The notes beneath the pieces were generated by a model. It saw nothing but the letters and a program-made list of their open reading frames with translations, did no database searches and was not told the origin of the DNA. Positions 1,383 to 10,115 of a DNA stretch of 64,000 nt are shown here, one piece after another. The number at the start of each line of letters is the position of its first letter. Position 1 is the stretch's first letter. A program made the translations under genes and the position numbers. Source of the DNA: Oligoflexia bacterium. GTDB lineage: Bacteria; Bdellovibrionota; Bdellovibrionia; JABDDW01. The DNA lies in NCBI GenBank assembly GCA_020847095.1, contig JADLCR010000055.1, positions 1 through 64,000 of the forward strand, given 5' to 3'.

Positions 1383-1412
1383 GAAGAGTGGGCTTTAATA
1401 TTGGAGTTCACT

Positions 1413-2105
1413 ATGAATTATCCGGTTCGCTTTCTCTTGGTCAGTCGTAAAACAGACGATGCCTTTCGAATAAAAACAGAAGTTGAAAGAAATAAGCTTT
1501 ATAAAGTTGAGCTCGAAGAGTCGGCTTCTGGAGCTATCGAAAAAATCAAAGAAGGTGACGTCCATTGTTTAGTTTTCAACTTTGAAAGTTTCAAGACCAC
1601 AAAAATGCCCCTAGTTAAAAGTTTGCGCGAAGCCGGGTATACATTTCCAATTATTGTTTTTGCTGAGTACGTTCAAAAAGAATCCTTGCTTGAAATGGCA
1701 AAGCTCACAAAGGCTGTTGTCATTGAACGGCCCTTTGAACCAAAGGATGTCTGGGGAATATGCGAAAAGCTGGTTCAAGGATATGACGTTCCGCAAAGGG
1801 TTCATCGTCGATTTTACACGAATCAGACTGCCGTGTTTGAAAAGGTCGTGAGCGGAGAACTTGTTCAGGGCCGTATTTACAACCTGTCAAAAGGCGGAGC
1901 TTACATAGAAGTGACAGAAGGTAAAGTGGGCCTCGGTGATCTTGTTAAGGTGGAAATTCATCTCGATAAAGTTTCAAGATCCTACAATGTGGATGCTCAA
2001 GTTGTTTGGACTTCACAAAAAGGCGGTTGGCTCGGTAAGCCGGCTGCTGGAGTCCGTTTTATTACTGCGGGCGATGTTTACAGAAATCTTCTCGAGAAAC
2101 TATGA
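1413..2105 (+). CDS. Receiver-like/PilZ two-domain protein 1
   Basis: About 230 residues: an N-terminal response-regulator-receiver-like fold (roughly 1-120) followed by a PilZ domain (roughly 125-230). The PilZ part has both c-di-GMP-binding motifs, RxxxR at residues 129-133 (RVHRR) and NxSxxG at 157-162 (NLSKGG), so binding is expected. In the receiver part the phospho-acceptor position after the third strand reads Asn (LVFN) rather than Asp, so ordinary phosphorylation is unlikely. The start is ATG 1413 with GGAG six bases upstream; a TTG 12 bases earlier is less likely. First of three tandem paralogs, overlapping the next by four bases. The output partner is unknown. Confidence 0.85.
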   Translation: MNYPVRFLLVSRKTDDAFRIKTEVERNKLYKVELEESASGAIEKIKEGDVHCLVFNFESFKTTKMPLVKSLREAGYTFPIIVFAEYVQKESLLEMAKLTKAVVIERPFEPKDVWGICEKLVQGYDVPQRVHRRFYTNQTAVFEKVVSGELVQGRIYNLSKGGAYIEVTEGKVGLGDLVKVEIHLDKVSRSYNVDAQVVWTSQKGGWLGKPAAGVRFITAGDVYRNLLEKL

Positions 2106-2806
2106 ACGACAAAAGGGATTTAAAAGACAAATTCACTGTTCTTTTGATGTCAAAAGAGCGGCAGGATCAAGAAATGATCCAAAAGGAGATCTCTCAGTCG
2201 GGTGGGGTTTATGAGCTCACGGAGAACTGGGAAGCTGCTTTTAATCGGATTCAGAGCGGCGGCATTGATTCCGTCGTTGCCAATTTATTTATTTTCGATG
2301 GAGATGCCTTTAATCGAATTAATCATTTGAAGGTGGTCGCGCCCACTCTCACACCCACTATTGTCTCAGCGACAAACATGTCGATCACCCGTGACCAATT
2401 GAAAAAAGCTGGAAAGATTGTCGTTTTGGATAAGCCACTGAAAGTGGGTGCGATTGAATCGATCGTGAGTCGTCTTAAATCAGGAGAGCAAGTATCGCTG
2501 AGAGATGAAGCGCGATTTGTTGCTAGACAGTTCTTGGTTATGGAAAAACTTCCGGCGGGCCAAACTCAAAAGGCCTTGATATTAAACATTTCTAAACAAG
2601 GTGCCTGCGTTGAATTTAAAGGGGCGGCTTTAAAGGCGGGGGAAGTCTTAAGAATGACCATTCCTCTGGATGTGGTTGGCCGTACGCACACCGTCTATGG
2701 AAAAGTTGTTTGGACAAAAGATGGATCAGGAATCCAATCCATTGGACTTATTTTCGTATCAGAGGAAATAGCATTCAATCTGATTTTAGAAAAGGCAACC
2801 GCTTAA
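2102..2806 (+). CDS. Receiver-like/PilZ two-domain protein 2
   Basis: Same architecture as its upstream neighbour and translationally coupled to it through an ATGA overlap. The PilZ RxxxR motif is RDEAR and the second motif is NISKQG, so c-di-GMP binding is expected. The receiver-like half has Asn (VVAN) at the normal Asp phosphorylation site, suggesting a phosphorylation-independent interaction domain. It is the most diverged of the three copies, although the 234-residue length is conserved. Probably cytosolic, since there is no signal peptide or membrane segment. The three genes probably arose by tandem duplication. Confidence 0.82.
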   Translation: MNDKRDLKDKFTVLLMSKERQDQEMIQKEISQSGGVYELTENWEAAFNRIQSGGIDSVVANLFIFDGDAFNRINHLKVVAPTLTPTIVSATNMSITRDQLKKAGKIVVLDKPLKVGAIESIVSRLKSGEQVSLRDEARFVARQFLVMEKLPAGQTQKALILNISKQGACVEFKGAALKAGEVLRMTIPLDVVGRTHTVYGKVVWTKDGSGIQSIGLIFVSEEIAFNLILEKATA

Positions 2807-2817
2807 AGTGAGTTTTT

Positions 2818-3519
2818 ATGACTAAGAGAATGAAGCCGCAATTTTTACTGGTGAGCAAAGACAAAGAAAGCACGACAGAGATTCTCAACACGCTTTCTTT
2901 TTCGAAATCTTACGAAATCCTAATTGCGGGAAGCCTCAATGAGGCGATGCATCTCTTAGCAACCAATTCCATAAAGTGTGTTATTTTTGATATTCCAACC
3001 TTCACACTAAAAAGTATCAAATTCATAAATAAGCTAAGAGAAATGTATCAAGAGCCGCCATTCATGATCATTTCATACAAAATTCAAAAAGAGGCTTTTG
3101 ATAGTGCTTGTAAAATTGATCGGGTTGTCATGCTCGAGAGAACTTTCTTGCATGAAGAGCTGCCCGGAATTTGCGAGAAAATTGTCACTGGCCGAGAAAT
3201 CATGCAAAGAAAATTTAAACGTTTTGCTACGGATCAAATCGTAGAGATTGAGCGCATGGTCACCGGTGAGGTTTTTCGGGGATTTGCTTTTAATTTGAGT
3301 CAGGGTGGCGCTTATATCACAATCGAAAACGGCTCGGTCGCGCCCGGTGACATATTGCGAGTCGGTGTTCGGCTCGACAAAGTAGGAAAACTTCATGTCT
3401 TGTTCGGTAAGGTCATTTGGGTGATGCAAAATCCAATTAACAAACTAAACCCAAGGGCTGGCGTGCGGTTTGTCCCTGCGGAATTTGTGTACTCTTCTTT
3501 GTTAGAGACGGTTAAATAA
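2818..3519 (+). CDS. Receiver-like/PilZ two-domain protein 3
   Basis: Third paralog in the array, 233 residues, separated from the second by 11 bases. The PilZ motifs RKFKR and NLSQGG are intact. Unlike the other two copies, the receiver-like half keeps an Asp at the phospho-acceptor position (VIFD). A conserved-position Lys near the end of the receiver is not obvious, so phosphorylation remains uncertain. Its last eight bases overlap the convergent CDF transporter gene, leaving no room for a terminator. Likely a c-di-GMP effector. Confidence 0.83.
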   Translation: MTKRMKPQFLLVSKDKESTTEILNTLSFSKSYEILIAGSLNEAMHLLATNSIKCVIFDIPTFTLKSIKFINKLREMYQEPPFMIISYKIQKEAFDSACKIDRVVMLERTFLHEELPGICEKIVTGREIMQRKFKRFATDQIVEIERMVTGEVFRGFAFNLSQGGAYITIENGSVAPGDILRVGVRLDKVGKLHVLFGKVIWVMQNPINKLNPRAGVRFVPAEFVYSSLLETVK

Positions 3520-4444
3520 GCGGCTCTAGCTTCTTAAGGCTTTCATCTTCAATTTGAATGGTGACGTGATCGATTCCAAACTGATCCCGAATCAGATCTC
3601 TTAAAGCAAGCAAAAGATCATGCTTGGATCCTTCTTGGGCTACAACGTGAACGCTCAAACAAACCACACCTGAGGTGATCGTCCACACATGAAGATCATG
3701 GACTTCTTTGACACATTTTACCGCCTCCAAGGATTCTTGAATTTTCTGAATATCGAGATGCCGTGGAGTTCCCTCTAGTATCACGTGAGTTGTATCCAAT
3801 ATGAGGCGATAGGATGATGCTAGAATGATAAGGGCGATAATAATTGAAACTATCGCGTCGGCTTGGGTCAGGCCAAAAAAGTAAATTAATACCGCGGCAA
3901 TAATTGCTCCTAAAGACCCCAAAGCGTCACCCATCACATGAAACAAAGCTCCCCGCACATTGAGATGGGTATGGTCACCATGGGTCAAAATCCAAGCGCC
4001 GGCTAAATTGAAGGCAAGCCCCGCAAGCGAGATCCAAAACATTTCCACCGACTTGATTTCGCCAGGGTCTTGAAGCCTACCGATGGCTCCCCAAACAATG
4101 CTTACGGCAATCACGGCCAGAAGGAGCCCGTTCAAAAAGGCCGCTAAGATTTCCATGCGCAGGTAGCCAAAGGTTCGTTTGGCGGTCGCCGGGCGATTTG
4201 AAATAATAAATGCAAATAGACTCAGAGAAAGGGCAGCGGCGTCGGTCAACATATGGGCCGCATCGGACATTAACGCTAAAGACCCGGTGTAGAGTCCGCC
4301 GAGCACCTCGGCCACCATGAACAAGAGGGTGAGCGCAATCACCCATTTCAGCTGACTGGCATTTTCTTTGTTTCGATTAGACCATGAATGATGATGATGG
4401 TTGTGATGATGTTCATGATCACCGCAATGGTCTTTGTGCGTCAT
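3512..4444 (-). CDS. Cation diffusion facilitator (zinc-type efflux)
   Basis: A CDF antiporter of the CzcD/ZitB type that exports Zn2+ or a related divalent metal across the inner membrane. The N-terminus is a histidine-rich metal-binding stretch. Six membrane segments follow, with the intramembrane site residues in SDAAHMLTD (segment 2) and HVMGD (segment 5), and then a cytosolic ferredoxin-like domain. An ATG six bases further upstream exists, but the AAAGAG ribosome site lies only one base from it and seven bases from the ATG at 4444, so the latter is chosen (310 residues). Divergent from selD. Confidence 0.92.
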   Translation of the reverse strand: MTHKDHCGDHEHHHNHHHHSWSNRNKENASQLKWVIALTLLFMVAEVLGGLYTGSLALMSDAAHMLTDAAALSLSLFAFIISNRPATAKRTFGYLRMEILAAFLNGLLLAVIAVSIVWGAIGRLQDPGEIKSVEMFWISLAGLAFNLAGAWILTHGDHTHLNVRGALFHVMGDALGSLGAIIAAVLIYFFGLTQADAIVSIIIALIILASSYRLILDTTHVILEGTPRHLDIQKIQESLEAVKCVKEVHDLHVWTITSGVVCLSVHVVAQEGSKHDLLLALRDLIRDQFGIDHVTIQIEDESLKKLEPLI

Positions 4445-4505
4445 ATGCATACTCTTTAGCTAAACGAAATTTAATCCCTTGTCACTAAGACTTTGATCTA
4501 CGAAA

Positions 4506-5570
4506 ATGAACGCCATGGTCTGGAAAAGATTAAAGAAAAAAGACCGGCTTACCCAAAGCGTTTCTTGCGCTGGTTGAGCCGCAAAACTTAGCCCGGCGGT
4601 GCTGAGGCAAGCAGTCAAAAATATTCCTAAGTCGACGGATCCGAATCTTCTTGTGGGATTCGAGAATGCTGACGATGCAGGGGTCTATCGATTATCCAAA
4701 AATCAGGCTTTGGTTCAAACCGTAGATTTTTTCACCCCCATTGTTGATGATCCGACTTGGTTTGGGCGAATTGCCGCCGCAAATAGTTTGAGCGACATTT
4801 ACGCCATGGGGGCCCAACCATTGACGGCGCTTAATATCTTTTGCGCTCCAGAAGATTTGCCACCGGCCACGATATCTAAAATTCTAAGTGGTGGAGCGGA
4901 AAAGCTTCGAGAGGCGGGCTGTGTCTTGGTCGGGGGGCACTCGGTAAAAGACCGTGAACTTAAATTTGGAATGTCGATTACCGGAATGGTTCACCCGAAA
5001 AAATATTTAAGCAATGACATGGTCAAAGTAGGAGATGTGCTCGTACTCACTAAACCCTTAGGAACAGGGGTCATCACCACGGCGGCAAAAAACGATAGCT
5101 GTCCCCCAGAGGTTCTGAAAAAGGCGGTGCTGAGTATGGCAAGGCTTAATCGCAAGGCCGGTGAGTTGATGATTAAACACGGGGCCCATGCTTGCACAGA
5201 TATTACGGGCTTCGGACTCATGGGTCATTTGTCTGAGTTGGCAAGAGCGAGTCACGTCAAAATTCGAATTCAAACGGGGCAAATTCCACGCTTTGCCGGT
5301 GTCGAAAAGCTTATAGAGCAGGAGTTTTATACGCGCGGGGATCAGTTAAACCGTGACTACGCGAAACCTTTTCATATTGCAGAACGAGTATCCCAAACCG
5401 ACCAGCACCTTATTTTTGATCCGCAAACGAGTGGAGGACTGTTGATTTGCATCCCGCCAAAAAAATGTTTGGGGTTTATTCGAGCTATGACTAAGGCGGG
5501 CGAACTCGCTACGCCCATAGGAACAGTCTTGAAGAAGCAAAAACATGGGTTAATCGAGGTTGTCCCATGA
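4506..5570 (+). CDS. selD: Selenide, water dikinase containing selenocysteine (UGA at 4575-4577)
   Basis: Makes selenophosphate from selenide and ATP, the selenium donor for selenocysteine and selenouridine synthesis. Reading from ATG 4506 (or 4515) through the in-frame TGA at 4575 gives RLTQ...CAGU-AAKLSP, which aligns with the family N-terminus LTQ...GAGCGCK. The U falls on catalytic Cys17 of E. coli SelD. The second Cys of that motif is Ala here. Downstream are DPNLLVG, DDAGVY, DFFTPIVDDP, GGHSV, TGFGLMGHL and DPQTSGG. The full length is 354 residues, close to E. coli SelD (347). A caller that stops at TGA would start at GTG 4599 and lose the active site. No good ribosome site precedes either ATG. 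Confidence 0.88.
4587..4606 (+). promoter_or_regulatory. Candidate bacterial SECIS hairpin in selD
   Basis: Ten bases after the TGA, CTTAGC (4587-4592) pairs with GCTGAG (4601-4606) to form a six-pair stem with one G-U. The loop CCGGCGGT can close one further C-G pair to leave a GG-starting apical loop about 18 bases from the TGA. This fits the general description of bacterial SECIS elements, which are recognised by SelB. No energy calculation was made. Confidence 0.55.
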
Positions 5571-6259
5571 AAATTAAGTCTTTCTTGTTGGATAATGCTG
5601 CGACAAAAAACGCTTTTGGTCTGCACGAAGCGCGCGAGCTTAAGCAGTTTGTTCAAAAGGCGGTTAGTGAAAAGGCCTTGGGAATTATTATTGAGTCGGC
5701 ACTTCCGAGGGTTTTCTGTTCGGGAGGAAATTTGAATGAATATCGAAAACTCAAGACAAAGGCCCAAGGAGTAAAAGTAAACGCCGAGATCCGTCACATA
5801 TTGAAGTGGATAAATCAACAGCCCATTTTTTTAACAGCCGCCGTTGAAGGTGCATGTGTGGGTGGGGGATGTGAGGTCATCAGCTACTGTGATTTTATCG
5901 CCGTCGGGACTGGGGGGCGGATTGCCTACAAACAAGTTTCCCTAGGACTTATTCAAGGCTGGGGTGGGTTGTCGCGACTCGTTCAGCGCGTTGGAGCTGC
6001 AAAGGCTTTGGATTGGACGACGTCAGGCCAGTGGATTTCACCTCAAGTGGCTGTGGATTCAGGATTATGCGACCAGCTGGTTTCGAAAGGTCAGGCGGCC
6101 AAAGCCTGTGCGCAATGGTTAGGGGAGCGATCGCCTCATGTGGCCAAGTTTTTACCCAAGCTTCGAGATTGTTTAAAAGGGCCAATTCAGAAAGAAGAAA
6201 AACTCTTTGATTCGCTTTGGTTTGGCGACGTCCATAAAACCATGTTAAACAATCGCTGA
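5567..6259 (+). CDS. Enoyl-CoA hydratase/isomerase (crotonase) family protein
   Basis: Crotonase-fold protein of 230 residues, slightly short for the family (about 260). The oxyanion-hole elements are present: FCSGGN near residue 49 and GACVGGG near residue 95. The position of the first catalytic Glu of true hydratases appears to be Gln (YKQVSLG), so the reaction may not be classical hydration; isomerase, hydrolase or a dead enzyme are alternatives. It starts by an ATGA overlap with selD, suggesting co-expression, although no functional link to selenium is evident. Confidence 0.8.
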   Translation: MKIKSFLLDNAATKNAFGLHEARELKQFVQKAVSEKALGIIIESALPRVFCSGGNLNEYRKLKTKAQGVKVNAEIRHILKWINQQPIFLTAAVEGACVGGGCEVISYCDFIAVGTGGRIAYKQVSLGLIQGWGGLSRLVQRVGAAKALDWTTSGQWISPQVAVDSGLCDQLVSKGQAAKACAQWLGERSPHVAKFLPKLRDCLKGPIQKEEKLFDSLWFGDVHKTMLNNR

Positions 6260-6882
6260 TGTTAAAATTTCAAGCCTTTGTTGTGAATCATTTTTTTGAA
6301 AATACTTATTTGGTCTATGATGAATCGTCCAAAGAGGCTCTCATTATCGACCCCGGTCTACCCGAAAAAAAACTCGATCAATTTATTCAAACCCATGATC
6401 TAAAAGTAATGGGCCTAGTCTGCACCCATTGTCATCCCGATCATATTGCGGGAGTTAATTACTACAAGAGCCGCCTTAAAGCGCCATTTTGGATCCATCG
6501 CGGAGAAACTCAAATTTTAGATGCTTATGAACAATGGGCTCCGGCACTTGGTTTTGAGCCCGTGGCTCCGGTTCCTACCGATTACTACCGAGGCGGGGAT
6601 GAGTTTTATTTGGGTGATTCAAAGCTCAAAATAATCGAGACCCCAGGGCATTCTCCCGGTGGGGTTTGTTTTCATTGCGCCGCTCAGAAAATACTGTTTT
6701 CTGGAGATTCCTTGTTTCAGCGGTCTATTGGGCGAACGGATTTTCCGGGTGGCAATCACGATCAACTGCTTCAATCTATTCGTAGCCAGCTGTTTACCTT
6801 AGAGGGCACAACCCAGGTATTTCCCGGCCATGGTGAGGCCACTTCCATTAAAGAAGAAATCGAGGAAAACCCCTTTCTTTAA
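6259..6882 (+). CDS. Metallo-beta-lactamase-fold hydrolase (GloB-like)
   Basis: A 207-residue zinc hydrolase with the signature THCHPDH at about residues 54-60, GHSPGG (His), SGDSLF (bridging Asp) and PGHG near the C-terminus. This set is typical of the glyoxalase II/YcbL-like branch, which hydrolyses thioesters such as S-lactoylglutathione. It lacks the extra C-terminal domain of full glyoxalase II, so YcbL-like is the closer fit and the substrate is uncertain. No signal peptide. The start overlaps the previous stop (TGATG). Confidence 0.9.
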   Translation: MLKFQAFVVNHFFENTYLVYDESSKEALIIDPGLPEKKLDQFIQTHDLKVMGLVCTHCHPDHIAGVNYYKSRLKAPFWIHRGETQILDAYEQWAPALGFEPVAPVPTDYYRGGDEFYLGDSKLKIIETPGHSPGGVCFHCAAQKILFSGDSLFQRSIGRTDFPGGNHDQLLQSIRSQLFTLEGTTQVFPGHGEATSIKEEIEENPFL

Positions 6883-6895
6883 TCGGGGTTGACCG

Positions 6896-6924
6896 TTGAC
6901 ACAAAATCGACCCTGGGGCAATAT
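6896..6924 (+). promoter_or_regulatory. Possible sigma-70 promoter before ferredoxin
   Basis: TTGACA at 6896-6901 is a perfect -35. Seventeen bases later CAATAT (6919-6924) is a mediocre -10. It lies in the 68-base gap before the ferredoxin gene, whose ribosome site AAGGAG follows at about 6936. Confidence 0.4.
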
Positions 6925-6950
6925 ATCCGACCAGTTAAGGAGTTGATTAA

Positions 6951-7184
6951 ATGGCAGACCAAGCCAACAAATATGATCAAAATGTTCCCGGCAAGTTTTA
7001 CGTGGACAAGCAATGTATTGCTTGTGATGCCTGCTGCACCTCAGCTCCTAATAACTTCAAAATGAACGAATCTGAAGGACATGCCTATTTGGCCATCCAA
7101 CCTCAAACTCCTGAAGAAGAAATTCAGTGTAAAGAGGCAATGGAAGGCTGCCCAGTCGAGGCCATCGGAAACGACGGCAAGTAA
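6951..7184 (+). CDS. Ferredoxin, single [4Fe-4S] cluster type
   Basis: A small acidic electron carrier of 77 residues. The cluster ligands are CIACDAC (CxxCxxC) near residues 23-29 and a distal CP in GCPVEAIG. A further Cys next to the first group and one at about residue 63 are present. This is the pattern of Bacillus-type ferredoxins with one [4Fe-4S] cluster. A strong AAGGAG site lies eight bases before the ATG. One base separates it from the DNA polymerase X gene, so the two are probably co-transcribed. The redox partner is unknown; a ferredoxin-NADP reductase-like gene lies at 33877-34584. Confidence 0.93.
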   Translation: MADQANKYDQNVPGKFYVDKQCIACDACCTSAPNNFKMNESEGHAYLAIQPQTPEEEIQCKEAMEGCPVEAIGNDGK

Positions 7185-7185
7185 A

Positions 7186-8898
7186 ATGAATCGGGATCTA
7201 CTGTCCCAACAACTCAATGAAATTGCCGACTTCTTAGACCTTCTTGGAGAAAATCCTTTTAAAGTGCGCGCTCATCAAGCGGCCGCACGCATCATAGACA
7301 CTTTTTCAGGTGATTTAGAAAAAGCCATTGTTACAAGCGCGATTGGAGAAGTTAAGGGAATCGGCCCTGCGCTTTTAGAGAAGCTTAAGGAATTCCAAAG
7401 TACCGGCGCAATCAAAGAACATGCCCTTCTCAAAAAGAAGATCCCCGAAGGGGTTGTGGCCATGCTTCAAATTCCGGGATTGGGTCCAAAAAAAGTGCGC
7501 GCCCTGCACGAAAAGCTTCAGTTGAAATCCATAGGTGAACTTGAATATGCCTGCAAAGAAAACCGATTGATCAAGCTTGACGGCTTCGGTGAAAAAACAC
7601 AGGCCAAGATTCTTAAGAACATAGAATTTCTCAAAAAAAACCAGGATCGTTTTTTGTTCTCAGAAGCGCTTCTTGAAGCCGATTTGATTTCGTCAACGCT
7701 CAAGAAAGCCAAGGGGGTTAGTGAAGTAGCCGTTGCAGGATCCATTCGTCGTCGAAAAGAAATTATCAAAGACATTGATATTCTAGTGGCCAGCAAAAAT
7801 CCCAAAACGGCCACCCAAGTTTTTGTCAAACACCCAAGTGTTGAAGCGGTGATGGCCTCGGGCGAAACCAAATCTCAGGTTAAATTGAAAAACGGGATGA
7901 TTTGCGACCTGAGAGTCGTGAGCGCTGAAGAATTTCCATTTGCGCTACTTTATTTTACTGGGAGCAAAGAACACAATACGGAGCTTCGTACTATCGCTAA
8001 GGCAAAGGGTTTGAAGCTCAATGAGTATGGGTTGTTTAAAGGTGAAAAGCTCATTAAGTGCCGCGACGAGAAAGAGATCTATGAGCAATTGGGGTTGAGT
8101 TTTATTCCTCCTGAACTCCGAGAGAATTCTGGAGAATTTGATTTCACCCTTGGGAAGGAACCGCCGGCACTTATAGAGGTTTCGCAAATTCGAGGAGTCT
8201 TTCATTGTCATACAACCGATAGTGATGGCTCTGGTTCACTTGAAGAGATGGTGAGGGCGGCCGAAGCCTTGGGATATGAATACATTGGAATTAGTGACCA
8301 CAGCGGGTCTGCCGGTTATGCCCATGGTCTTAAAAAAGACCGGGTGCTCGAGCAATTCAAACGCATTGAAGCACTTCAGAAAAAGGTAAAGATTAGAATT
8401 CTCAAAGGCGTTGAGTCTGACATCTTGTCGGATGGTAAGCTTGATTATGACGAAGCCCTGTTGAAAAAGTTTGATTTCGTCATCGGCAGCATTCATTCGG
8501 GATTTTCTCAAAGCGAAATGGATATGACCAAGAGAGTTGTTAAGGCCTTGCGCAATCCGTATATGGACATGTTAGGCCATCCCACGGGCCGCCTGCTTTT
8601 GTCACGGGAAGCTTATGCCATCAACATGTCTGAGGTGATTGAAGAAGCAGCCAAACAAGGAGTCATAATCGAAGTGAATGCTCACCCGCAGCGACTCGAT
8701 TTGGATTGGCGGCTATGCCGTCAGCTCAAGCACCTCGGTGGCTATGTGAGCATAAATCCAGATGCTCATAGTGTGGCGGGTCTTGAAGACATTGAATATG
8801 GAGTCGGCATTGCTAGAAAAGGTTGGCTTGAGCCTAACCAAGTAGTGAATAGCTGGGGAGTTAAGAAGATTCTTGAAACATTGAGACGTAACCGGTGA
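7186..8898 (+). CDS. polX: DNA polymerase X with PHP domain
   Basis: A family X repair polymerase of 570 residues. Helix-hairpin-helix segments come first (IPGLGPKK near residue 97), then the nucleotidyltransferase core with GSIRRR and the DID metal pair near residue 200. The C-terminal PHP phosphoesterase domain begins with FHCHTTDSDG at about residue 343 and continues with SDHSGS and NAHPQR. The PHP part usually supplies 3'-5' exonuclease or AP-endonuclease activity for gap filling in base-excision repair. The start ATG 7186 fits the family N-terminus; longer readings overlap the ferredoxin in another frame. The following gene encodes endonuclease III, another base-excision repair enzyme, overlapping by four bases. 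Confidence 0.95.
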   Translation: MNRDLLSQQLNEIADFLDLLGENPFKVRAHQAAARIIDTFSGDLEKAIVTSAIGEVKGIGPALLEKLKEFQSTGAIKEHALLKKKIPEGVVAMLQIPGLGPKKVRALHEKLQLKSIGELEYACKENRLIKLDGFGEKTQAKILKNIEFLKKNQDRFLFSEALLEADLISSTLKKAKGVSEVAVAGSIRRRKEIIKDIDILVASKNPKTATQVFVKHPSVEAVMASGETKSQVKLKNGMICDLRVVSAEEFPFALLYFTGSKEHNTELRTIAKAKGLKLNEYGLFKGEKLIKCRDEKEIYEQLGLSFIPPELRENSGEFDFTLGKEPPALIEVSQIRGVFHCHTTDSDGSGSLEEMVRAAEALGYEYIGISDHSGSAGYAHGLKKDRVLEQFKRIEALQKKVKIRILKGVESDILSDGKLDYDEALLKKFDFVIGSIHSGFSQSEMDMTKRVVKALRNPYMDMLGHPTGRLLLSREAYAINMSEVIEEAAKQGVIIEVNAHPQRLDLDWRLCRQLKHLGGYVSINPDAHSVAGLEDIEYGVGIARKGWLEPNQVVNSWGVKKILETLRRNR

Positions 8899-9560
8899 AG
8901 CCCAAATCGACAAAAGAAAACCAGAGTCAAAAGTTGAATAGATCAAAGAGGATTATCTCTAACCTCGAAAAGACTTACCCCGACGCTCACTGTGAACTGG
9001 TGCACAAAAATCCGTTTGAATTATTGATCGCCACCATGCTCAGCGCTCAATGTACCGATGCGAGGGTTAATAAAGTTACACCAGAGTTGTTTTCGGCGTA
9101 TCCCAATGCCGGCGCCATGGCTAATGCACAATCCCAAGAGTTGGAAGAGATAATACGCTCTACAGGTTTCTTTAGAAATAAAGCTAAAAACATTCTTGCT
9201 TGCAGTCAAAAACTGGTCTCGCAGTACGACGGAAAGGTACCCGAAACGATGGAGGACCTTTCATCGCTTCCTGGAGTGGGGCGTAAGACAGCCAATGTTG
9301 TCTTGGGCAATGCTTTTGGGGTGCCGGGTTTAGTGGTGGATACCCATGTCACGCGCTTATCAAATCGCCTGGGGCTGGCTCGAGGCGAGGATGCGGTGAA
9401 GCTCGAACGTGAATTAGAAAAAGTAGTTCCGAAAAACAAATGGACCTTGTTTTCGCACCTTATGATATTTCACGGACGGCGAACCTGTAAGGCTCGGCGC
9501 CCAGATTGTGAAGCGTGTACGGTATTTAAACTTTGCCCACGCAAGGGAGTTAAACATTAA
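8895..9560 (+). CDS. nth: Endonuclease III
   Basis: A DNA glycosylase/AP lyase that removes oxidised pyrimidines. The helix-hairpin-helix LPGVGRKTA carries the catalytic Lys and is followed by the catalytic Asp in VDTHV. The C-terminal [4Fe-4S] loop has the spacing Cys-x6-Cys-x2-Cys-x5-Cys (CKARRPDCEACTVFKLC). It starts at GTG 8895, overlapping the polX stop (GTGA), which suggests the two repair enzymes are coupled. The first 15-20 residues are a polar extension relative to E. coli Nth. Length 221 residues. Confidence 0.96.
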   Translation: MKPKSTKENQSQKLNRSKRIISNLEKTYPDAHCELVHKNPFELLIATMLSAQCTDARVNKVTPELFSAYPNAGAMANAQSQELEEIIRSTGFFRNKAKNILACSQKLVSQYDGKVPETMEDLSSLPGVGRKTANVVLGNAFGVPGLVVDTHVTRLSNRLGLARGEDAVKLERELEKVVPKNKWTLFSHLMIFHGRRTCKARRPDCEACTVFKLCPRKGVKH

Positions 9561-10115
9561 ATGTCAATTTTGAAAGTGGCCCAGCTTGGGCATCCTATTT
9601 TACGAAAGATTGCGGCAAAAGTTCCGGTTGACGATATTCAGTCACCCGAATATCAACGGCTCATCGACGATATGATCGAAACAATGCGAGAATATGACGG
9701 CGTTGGATTGGCCGCTCCCCAAATTCATGTGAGTCTTCAAATTGCGGTCATGGAGATTCATGAAAATCCTCGCTATCCTGGGCAACCTGAAATTCCGGTG
9801 ACCGTTTTTATCAATCCCGTAATCACCCCAATGACAGAAGAAGAAATGGAAGTTTGGGAGGGGTGTTTGAGTGTTCGAGGGTTAAGAGGCGCTGTCCGGA
9901 GGCCAAAGAAAATCCATCTTTTAGCCTTTGATCGAGATGGCAACACTATTGATCGTGTGTATGAAGGATTTCCGGCTATTGCTATACAGCACGAAACAGA
10001 TCACCTTTTCGGAAAGGTTTTTCTCGATCGCATGAAAGATCTTTCAAAGTTGGCATTTATCGAAGAGTTTCAAAAGTACCACCTAAAACATGACGATGTA
10101 ATCGCAGATGAATAG
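9561..10115 (+). CDS. def: Peptide deformylase
   Basis: Removes the formyl group from nascent N-terminal methionine. All three metal-site motifs are present: GVGLAAPQ near residue 47, EGCLSV near residue 95 and QHETDH near residue 139, the last providing the two His and the catalytic Glu. Length 184 residues, normal for the family. It begins immediately after the nth stop codon and has no obvious ribosome site, so it is probably read by coupling. It is not adjacent to fmt, its usual partner in many genomes. Confidence 0.96.
   Translation: MSILKVAQLGHPILRKIAAKVPVDDIQSPEYQRLIDDMIETMREYDGVGLAAPQIHVSLQIAVMEIHENPRYPGQPEIPVTVFINPVITPMTEEEMEVWEGCLSVRGLRGAVRRPKKIHLLAFDRDGNTIDRVYEGFPAIAIQHETDHLFGKVFLDRMKDLSKLAFIEEFQKYHLKHDDVIADE

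Follow-up and report, generated by a model that had tools for sequence, protein, structure and literature searches.

A selenocysteine-form selenophosphate synthetase gene in a lineage of Bdellovibrionota

The selD gene described here is a genuine selenoprotein gene, a new example of a kind known in other bacteria; its active-site TGA is almost certainly read by the cell as selenocysteine (Sec). The gene lies in the window, a stretch of 64,000 nucleotides from the draft genome of an Oligoflexia bacterium (2.7 Mb in 112 contigs, 97% complete). The TGA occupies the catalytic position, is conserved in relatives and is followed by a conserved SECIS-like hairpin, and the genome encodes both the Sec machinery and MnmH. 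We are highly confident in the reading that combines these observations, that is, that selD specifies the Sec form of selenophosphate synthetase (SelD), produced by UGA read-through with the aid of SelB and the hairpin, supplying SelA and MnmH/YbbB and dependent on itself.

Results

The TGA codon is located at the catalytic position of SelD

When the TGA is translated as Sec, the selD frame (Table 1) is uninterrupted from ATG 4506 (or ATG 4515) to 5570 and reads MNAMVWKRLKKKDRLTQSVSCAG-U-AAKLSPAVLRQ at its start. The frame 3' of the TGA is that of selD (NCBIfam TIGR00476, 356.9 bits with a cut-off of 125), and the N- and C-terminal AIRS domains (PF00586 and PF02769) are both found in the protein. 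Using phmmer against solved structures, the Sec position is opposite Cys17 of the SelD from E. coli (PDB 3u0o, IRLTQYSHGAGCGCKISP) and opposite the Cys in the SelD from Aquifex (2yye, RSSGCAAKVGP); GUAAK in our sequence aligns with GCGCK in E. coli, so that in the N-terminal loop a Lys comes after the catalytic Cys/Sec. An earlier note, made from the letters of the window, had placed the TGA on catalytic Cys17, and the alignments with both proteins agree to the residue. It had also recognized the start of SelD in RLTQ...CAG before the TGA and AAKLSP after it; these segments align with E. coli SelD, and the same string is present in G002, a relative in the same family. Its remark that annotation would drop the active site is fair, because the table 11 ORF of selD begins only at GTG 4599; the translation given here corrects an annotation that loses the SelD active site. 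The note's description of Ala at the second Cys position as unusual does not hold: this is a common form, with GGCAAK in most of the uninterrupted Cys-SelDs that were read in the phylum and SGCAAK in Aquifex.

Table 1. Coordinates of selD, its Sec codon, the downstream hairpin and the adjacent genes in the window.
Feature	Position	Strand	Remarks
Cation-efflux gene, CzcD-like by eye	3512..4450	-	Divergent from selD; syntenic in G002 and G001
selD coding sequence, UGA as Sec	4506..5570	+	354 residues; alternative start ATG 4515; stop 5568-5570
In-frame TGA, selenocysteine codon	4575..4577	+	Opposite E. coli SelD Cys17
Ala-Ala-Lys codons directly after Sec	4578..4586	+	Lys 4584-4586 corresponds to E. 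coli Lys20
Stem of the earlier note	4587..4606	+	CUUAGC/GCUGAG; the same stretch in an alternative fold of nearly equal energy
Candidate conserved SECIS core	4591..4608	+	7 pairs kept in this genome, G002 and G005
Enoyl-CoA hydratase/crotonase-like gene	5567..6259	+	4-nt overlap between its ATG and the selD stop
MBL-fold hydrolase gene	6259..6882	+	Next in the run

The genome encodes the Sec machinery and MnmH

From the TGA, the earlier note predicted that the organism has selA, selB and selC, and a search of the genome located all of them: a selA that scores above its profile cut-off, a tRNA-Sec with the anticodon UCA (69.8 bits) and a SelB with fitting domains. The best family for SelB is TIGR00475 (184 bits, below the NCBIfam cut-off of 242), and its domains are an EF-Tu GTPase and the SelB-specific winged helix PF09107 (SelB-wing_3). 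The genes for selA, tRNA-Sec and SelB are on contigs 49, 59 and 19, respectively, that is, outside the window and unclustered. A selenium user other than Sec is represented by mnmH (ybbB; TIGR03167, 321.9 bits with a cut-off of 219.75).

SelB (L001 1468-3009) is short (514 aa), with a single recognized winged helix; SelA (L018, around 8500-9900) aligns with its profile from position 53 onward, and its score is below those of SelAs in other classes of the phylum. The two may constitute a diverged, streamlined pair.

The TGA is conserved and co-occurs with selA across the phylum

The SelD from G002 is 59% identical to ours and contains a single TGA in the same codon; the homology spans the TGA, and the string RLTQSVSCAG-U-AAKLSP is identical in the two. 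Another genome in the family, G001, is without SelD. In a sample of 291 genomes from the phylum, SelD is found in 110, and TGA is located at the Sec position in eight of these (this genome, G002, G005, G048, G022, G030, G122 and G015); the TGA-SelDs extend to other classes. In the 26 SelDs without TGA in which the motif was read directly, the residue is always Cys. We rejected one candidate, G156, as a Sec-SelD: the TGA in its match precedes the start, and its motif is GGCAAK.

The selA gene is found in 12 of the 291 genomes. It is present in seven of the eight genomes with TGA-SelD (the exception, G015, is 78% complete) and in two or three of the ~102 genomes in which SelD is without TGA (G058, G264 and possibly G044, the SelD of which is interrupted by a contig end, hence the range). 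The Fisher p value for the co-occurrence is 9e-9, or 3e-8 when G044 is counted against the hypothesis, with relatedness uncorrected in both. G058 and G264, with selA and without TGA in SelD, should carry some other selenoprotein. The TGA in a relative, the Sec machinery in the genome and the co-occurrence with selA together identify the codon as a Sec codon and not a nonsense mutation.

In a protein tree, our SelD clusters with that of G002, and the TGA-SelDs require three label changes, a number as low as which was obtained in 0 of 500 shuffles; the deep branches are without resolution, so gain and loss are not separable in this tree. A search for related loci in a collection of genome contigs returned distant matches only.

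G005 and G037 (L025 versus L114/L026), closest relatives within one family, have different forms of SelD: G005 has a TGA-SelD and selA, whereas G037 has a Cys-SelD (CAGCASK) and still has a SelB-like gene, with no selA found. The contrast resembles a switch from Sec to Cys that is still under way, or the effect of a genome that is 83% complete.

A SECIS-like hairpin follows the TGA

In the register conserved among this genome, G002 and G005, GCCCGGC (4591-4597) pairs with GCUG-a-GGC (4601-4608), with A4605 as a bulge and GGU (4598-4600) as the apical loop; the spacing from the UGA to the loop is 20 nt (4578-4597). The energies are -9.2 kcal/mol for our sequence in context (-7.7 in isolation), -9.9 for G002 and -7.5 for G005. 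The bSECIS model (PMC13188914, Fig. 2) specifies an apical loop of 3-9 nt with G in its first two positions, an upper stem of 4-16 bp, 16-37 nt between the UGA and the apical loop and an MFE <= -7.5 kcal/mol; the conserved register lies within the limits for the loop (GGU, beginning GG), the stem (four pairs to the bulge and three beyond), the spacing and the MFE, in context as well as in isolation.

The earlier note proposed a different, six-pair stem, CUUAGC (4587-4592) with GCUGAG (4601-4606) and the loop CCGGCGGU. That stem is literally present and, in our sequence, gains CC/GG to give eight pairs, a GGC loop and -8.9 kcal/mol. However, in the nearest SelDs, those of G002 and G005, its pairing is broken (~-1.8 kcal/mol; 79% of cells paired) and the overlapping register, shifted downstream by one codon, is kept instead; in addition, as a six-pair stem it departs from the G rule of the model, because its loop begins CC.

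Among our sequence, G002 and G005, one G-C pair of the conserved register is replaced by A-U through changes in both arms, and one G-U pair becomes A-U; G122, which belongs to another family, has the four inner pairs and the loop GGU at the same codons and differs in both arms at another pair. The covariation set is small because the order sample comprises 3 genomes and the class of G005 comprises 8, and pair shuffles on the three sequences are not significant (173/500); across three or four sequences, the covariation is suggestive in favor of the conserved register. A perfect hairpin is present in G022, G030 and G015, shifted upstream by one codon and with GGC or GGU as its loop, so the earlier register could also serve; our sequence is compatible with both.

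The signal is found across the TGA genes as a group. The earlier note had named folding of this stretch as a check, and a hairpin is indeed predicted there; alone, however, its stability does not exceed chance expectation (z-score +0.25 for the single-sequence fold), and 27 of 400 synonymous recodings equal or beat our SECIS-style hairpin. Against synonymous recoding, the hairpin scores of the eight TGA genes have z values of -1.4 to -4.7 (combined p 9e-8), whereas those of the 26 Cys genes are spread around zero (Mann-Whitney p 4e-5), and the two closest Cys-SelD relatives have no SECIS-like hairpin. No family in Rfam matches the hairpin, and the synonymous codons after the UGA are without significant excess conservation between our sequence and G002 (12 versus 177 codons, p 0.55).

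Alternatives to Sec decoding and the extent of the selenoproteome

Under the standard code the gene is interrupted, and the genome is a 112-contig draft; both speak for selD being a pseudogene or for the TGA being a sequencing or assembly error for TGC or TGT. However, the TGA is in the same codon in an independent relative with 59% identity as well as in other classes of the phylum, the other 330 codons are open and conserved, and the genome has the Sec machinery; conservation counts so strongly against a pseudogene or an error that we assign it a negligible probability and regard it as refuted in practice. Alternatively, a shorter SelD might start at GTG 4599 and work without the active-site residue, with the TGA merely a leader stop, and the table 11 ORF from that codon does score alone as SelD. 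We give this explanation virtually no weight: such a protein loses the catalytic Cys/Sec and the Lys, its start falls inside the SECIS loop, RLTQSVSCAG before the TGA is shared with G002 and can be aligned to E. coli SelD, and TGA-SelD accompanies selA across the phylum.

With the TGA of selD taken as a Sec codon, a further alternative concerns what maintains the Sec machinery: SelD could be one of several selenoproteins, with missed members, and not SelD, as the reason for its retention. The known selenoprotein families of prokaryotes number more than 110 (PMC13188914), of which we queried ~16 plus the molybdopterin oxidoreductases in a genome that is 97% complete. The joined query included thioredoxin, peroxiredoxins, GPx, MsrA, DsbA, glutaredoxin, HesB-like, ArsC-like, OsmC, SelW, AhpD, rhodanese, ResA and FdhF; the ~16 families gave 19 matches in the genome, none of which (0/19) contains an internal TGA. 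FdhA was not found: neither of the two molybdopterin oxidoreductases in the genome contains an internal TGA, and from their sequences one resembles a nitrate-reductase-type enzyme and the other an ActB-type protein, neither FdhA-like. TGA-bridged ORFs were also sought by coding potential, both in the window and in one 18-kb region each at selA, selB and selC; no second case was evident, and apart from selD the matches resemble neighboring genes or noise. These results stand against several selenoproteins, and we place the chance of that explanation at about even. SelD may thus be the only selenoprotein in the genome, a weak suggestion given the ~16 families queried of the >110 known. The gene content found here agrees with the account of Zhang et al. 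(2006), in which Sec decoders without FdhA have a Sec-SelD, mostly together with the selenouridine trait (PMC1794560). A broader proposal extends this to the whole Bdellovibrio-related family: SelD would be its one selenoprotein, with the Sec apparatus kept only for it and tRNA selenouridine as the only other output; we hold it tentatively, at somewhat below an even chance.

The genome neighborhood of selD and its absence in a sister genus

The enoyl-CoA hydratase-like gene and selD are likely co-transcribed. The order efflux gene-selD-hydratase gene is retained in G002. In G001, from a sister genus, the locus contains the efflux gene, a small ferredoxin-like ORF, DNA polymerase X and endonuclease III, and the segment with selD, the hydratase gene and the MBL-fold gene is missing (G001:C44, L111 1379-4348, compared with window 3512-8898); the ferredoxin-like ORF takes the place of that segment, flanked by the cation-efflux gene and DNA polymerase X. 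In the same genome, no selA was found and no SelB besides EF-Tu-like matches. If SelD is the only selenoprotein, G001, without the selD segment, selA and selB, would form a natural gain/loss pair with our genome.

A fragment of mnmH is found at a contig edge in G001 (L112 2-694). On the other side of the efflux gene in our window, 1401-3519 encodes three consecutive paralogues of ~234 aa, in which, by eye, the front is regulator-like and the end PilZ-like; the trio is kept in G002.

Discussion

We infer UGA read-through, SelB binding and the enzyme activity of SelD from these comparisons. In the proposed mechanism, translation would start at ATG 4506 or 4515; SelB would recognize the hairpin that begins ~14 nt downstream of the UGA, with the GGU apical loop 20 nt after it, and would present Sec-tRNA-Sec to the ribosome at UGA 4575. 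The resulting SelD, with Sec at the Cys17 position and the nearby Lys, would convert selenide and ATP to selenophosphate, which would go to SelA (for Sec-tRNA) and to MnmH/YbbB (for tRNA 2-selenouridine). SelD, itself in need of Sec, would thus depend on its own product for its synthesis.

The gene adds a Sec-decoding lineage to Bdellovibrionota, a phylum in which Sec decoding is rare (selA in 12 of 291 genomes) and of which B. bacteriovorus is the best-known member. A genome of the family without selD, selA and selB and the Sec/Cys pair of SelDs in G005 and G037, from another class, together provide a usable system for studying what maintains selenocysteine in a genome where its chief user seems to be SelD.

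Sec-containing SelD, known in many bacteria, is described as ranking second in distribution among the selenoprotein families of prokaryotes (PMC13188914). Our SelD resembles the Sec-SelDs of other bacteria in its N-terminal catalytic Sec, in the hairpin right after the UGA and in the complete set of selA, selB and selC; it differs in its new lineage and in the sequence of its SECIS, and the mechanism is no different. With the SelD from Aquifex aeolicus (PDB 2yye, 2zod) it shares the motif x-G-(Sec/Cys)-A-A-K, in which the second position is Ala. Aquifex belongs to a distant phylum, and its crystallized chain has Cys at the site. The native residue at that site is Sec. B. bacteriovorus is reported to have selD and ybbB and no Sec decoding (PMC1273633); its type of Cys-SelD is the same enzyme, with the GCAAK motif, and likewise supplies MnmH/YbbB, but it has Cys for Sec, selD and ybbB are adjacent and selA is missing, whereas in our genome selD and mnmH are on separate contigs and selD is beside the cation-efflux and enoyl-CoA hydratase genes. 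In gene content, our genome also resembles bacteria with YbbB in which SelD is the only selenoprotein (PMC1794560): these also have the Sec machinery, YbbB and a Sec-SelD, with no FdhA found; the difference is that, in our genome, the status of SelD as the only selenoprotein rests on the ~16 families queried.
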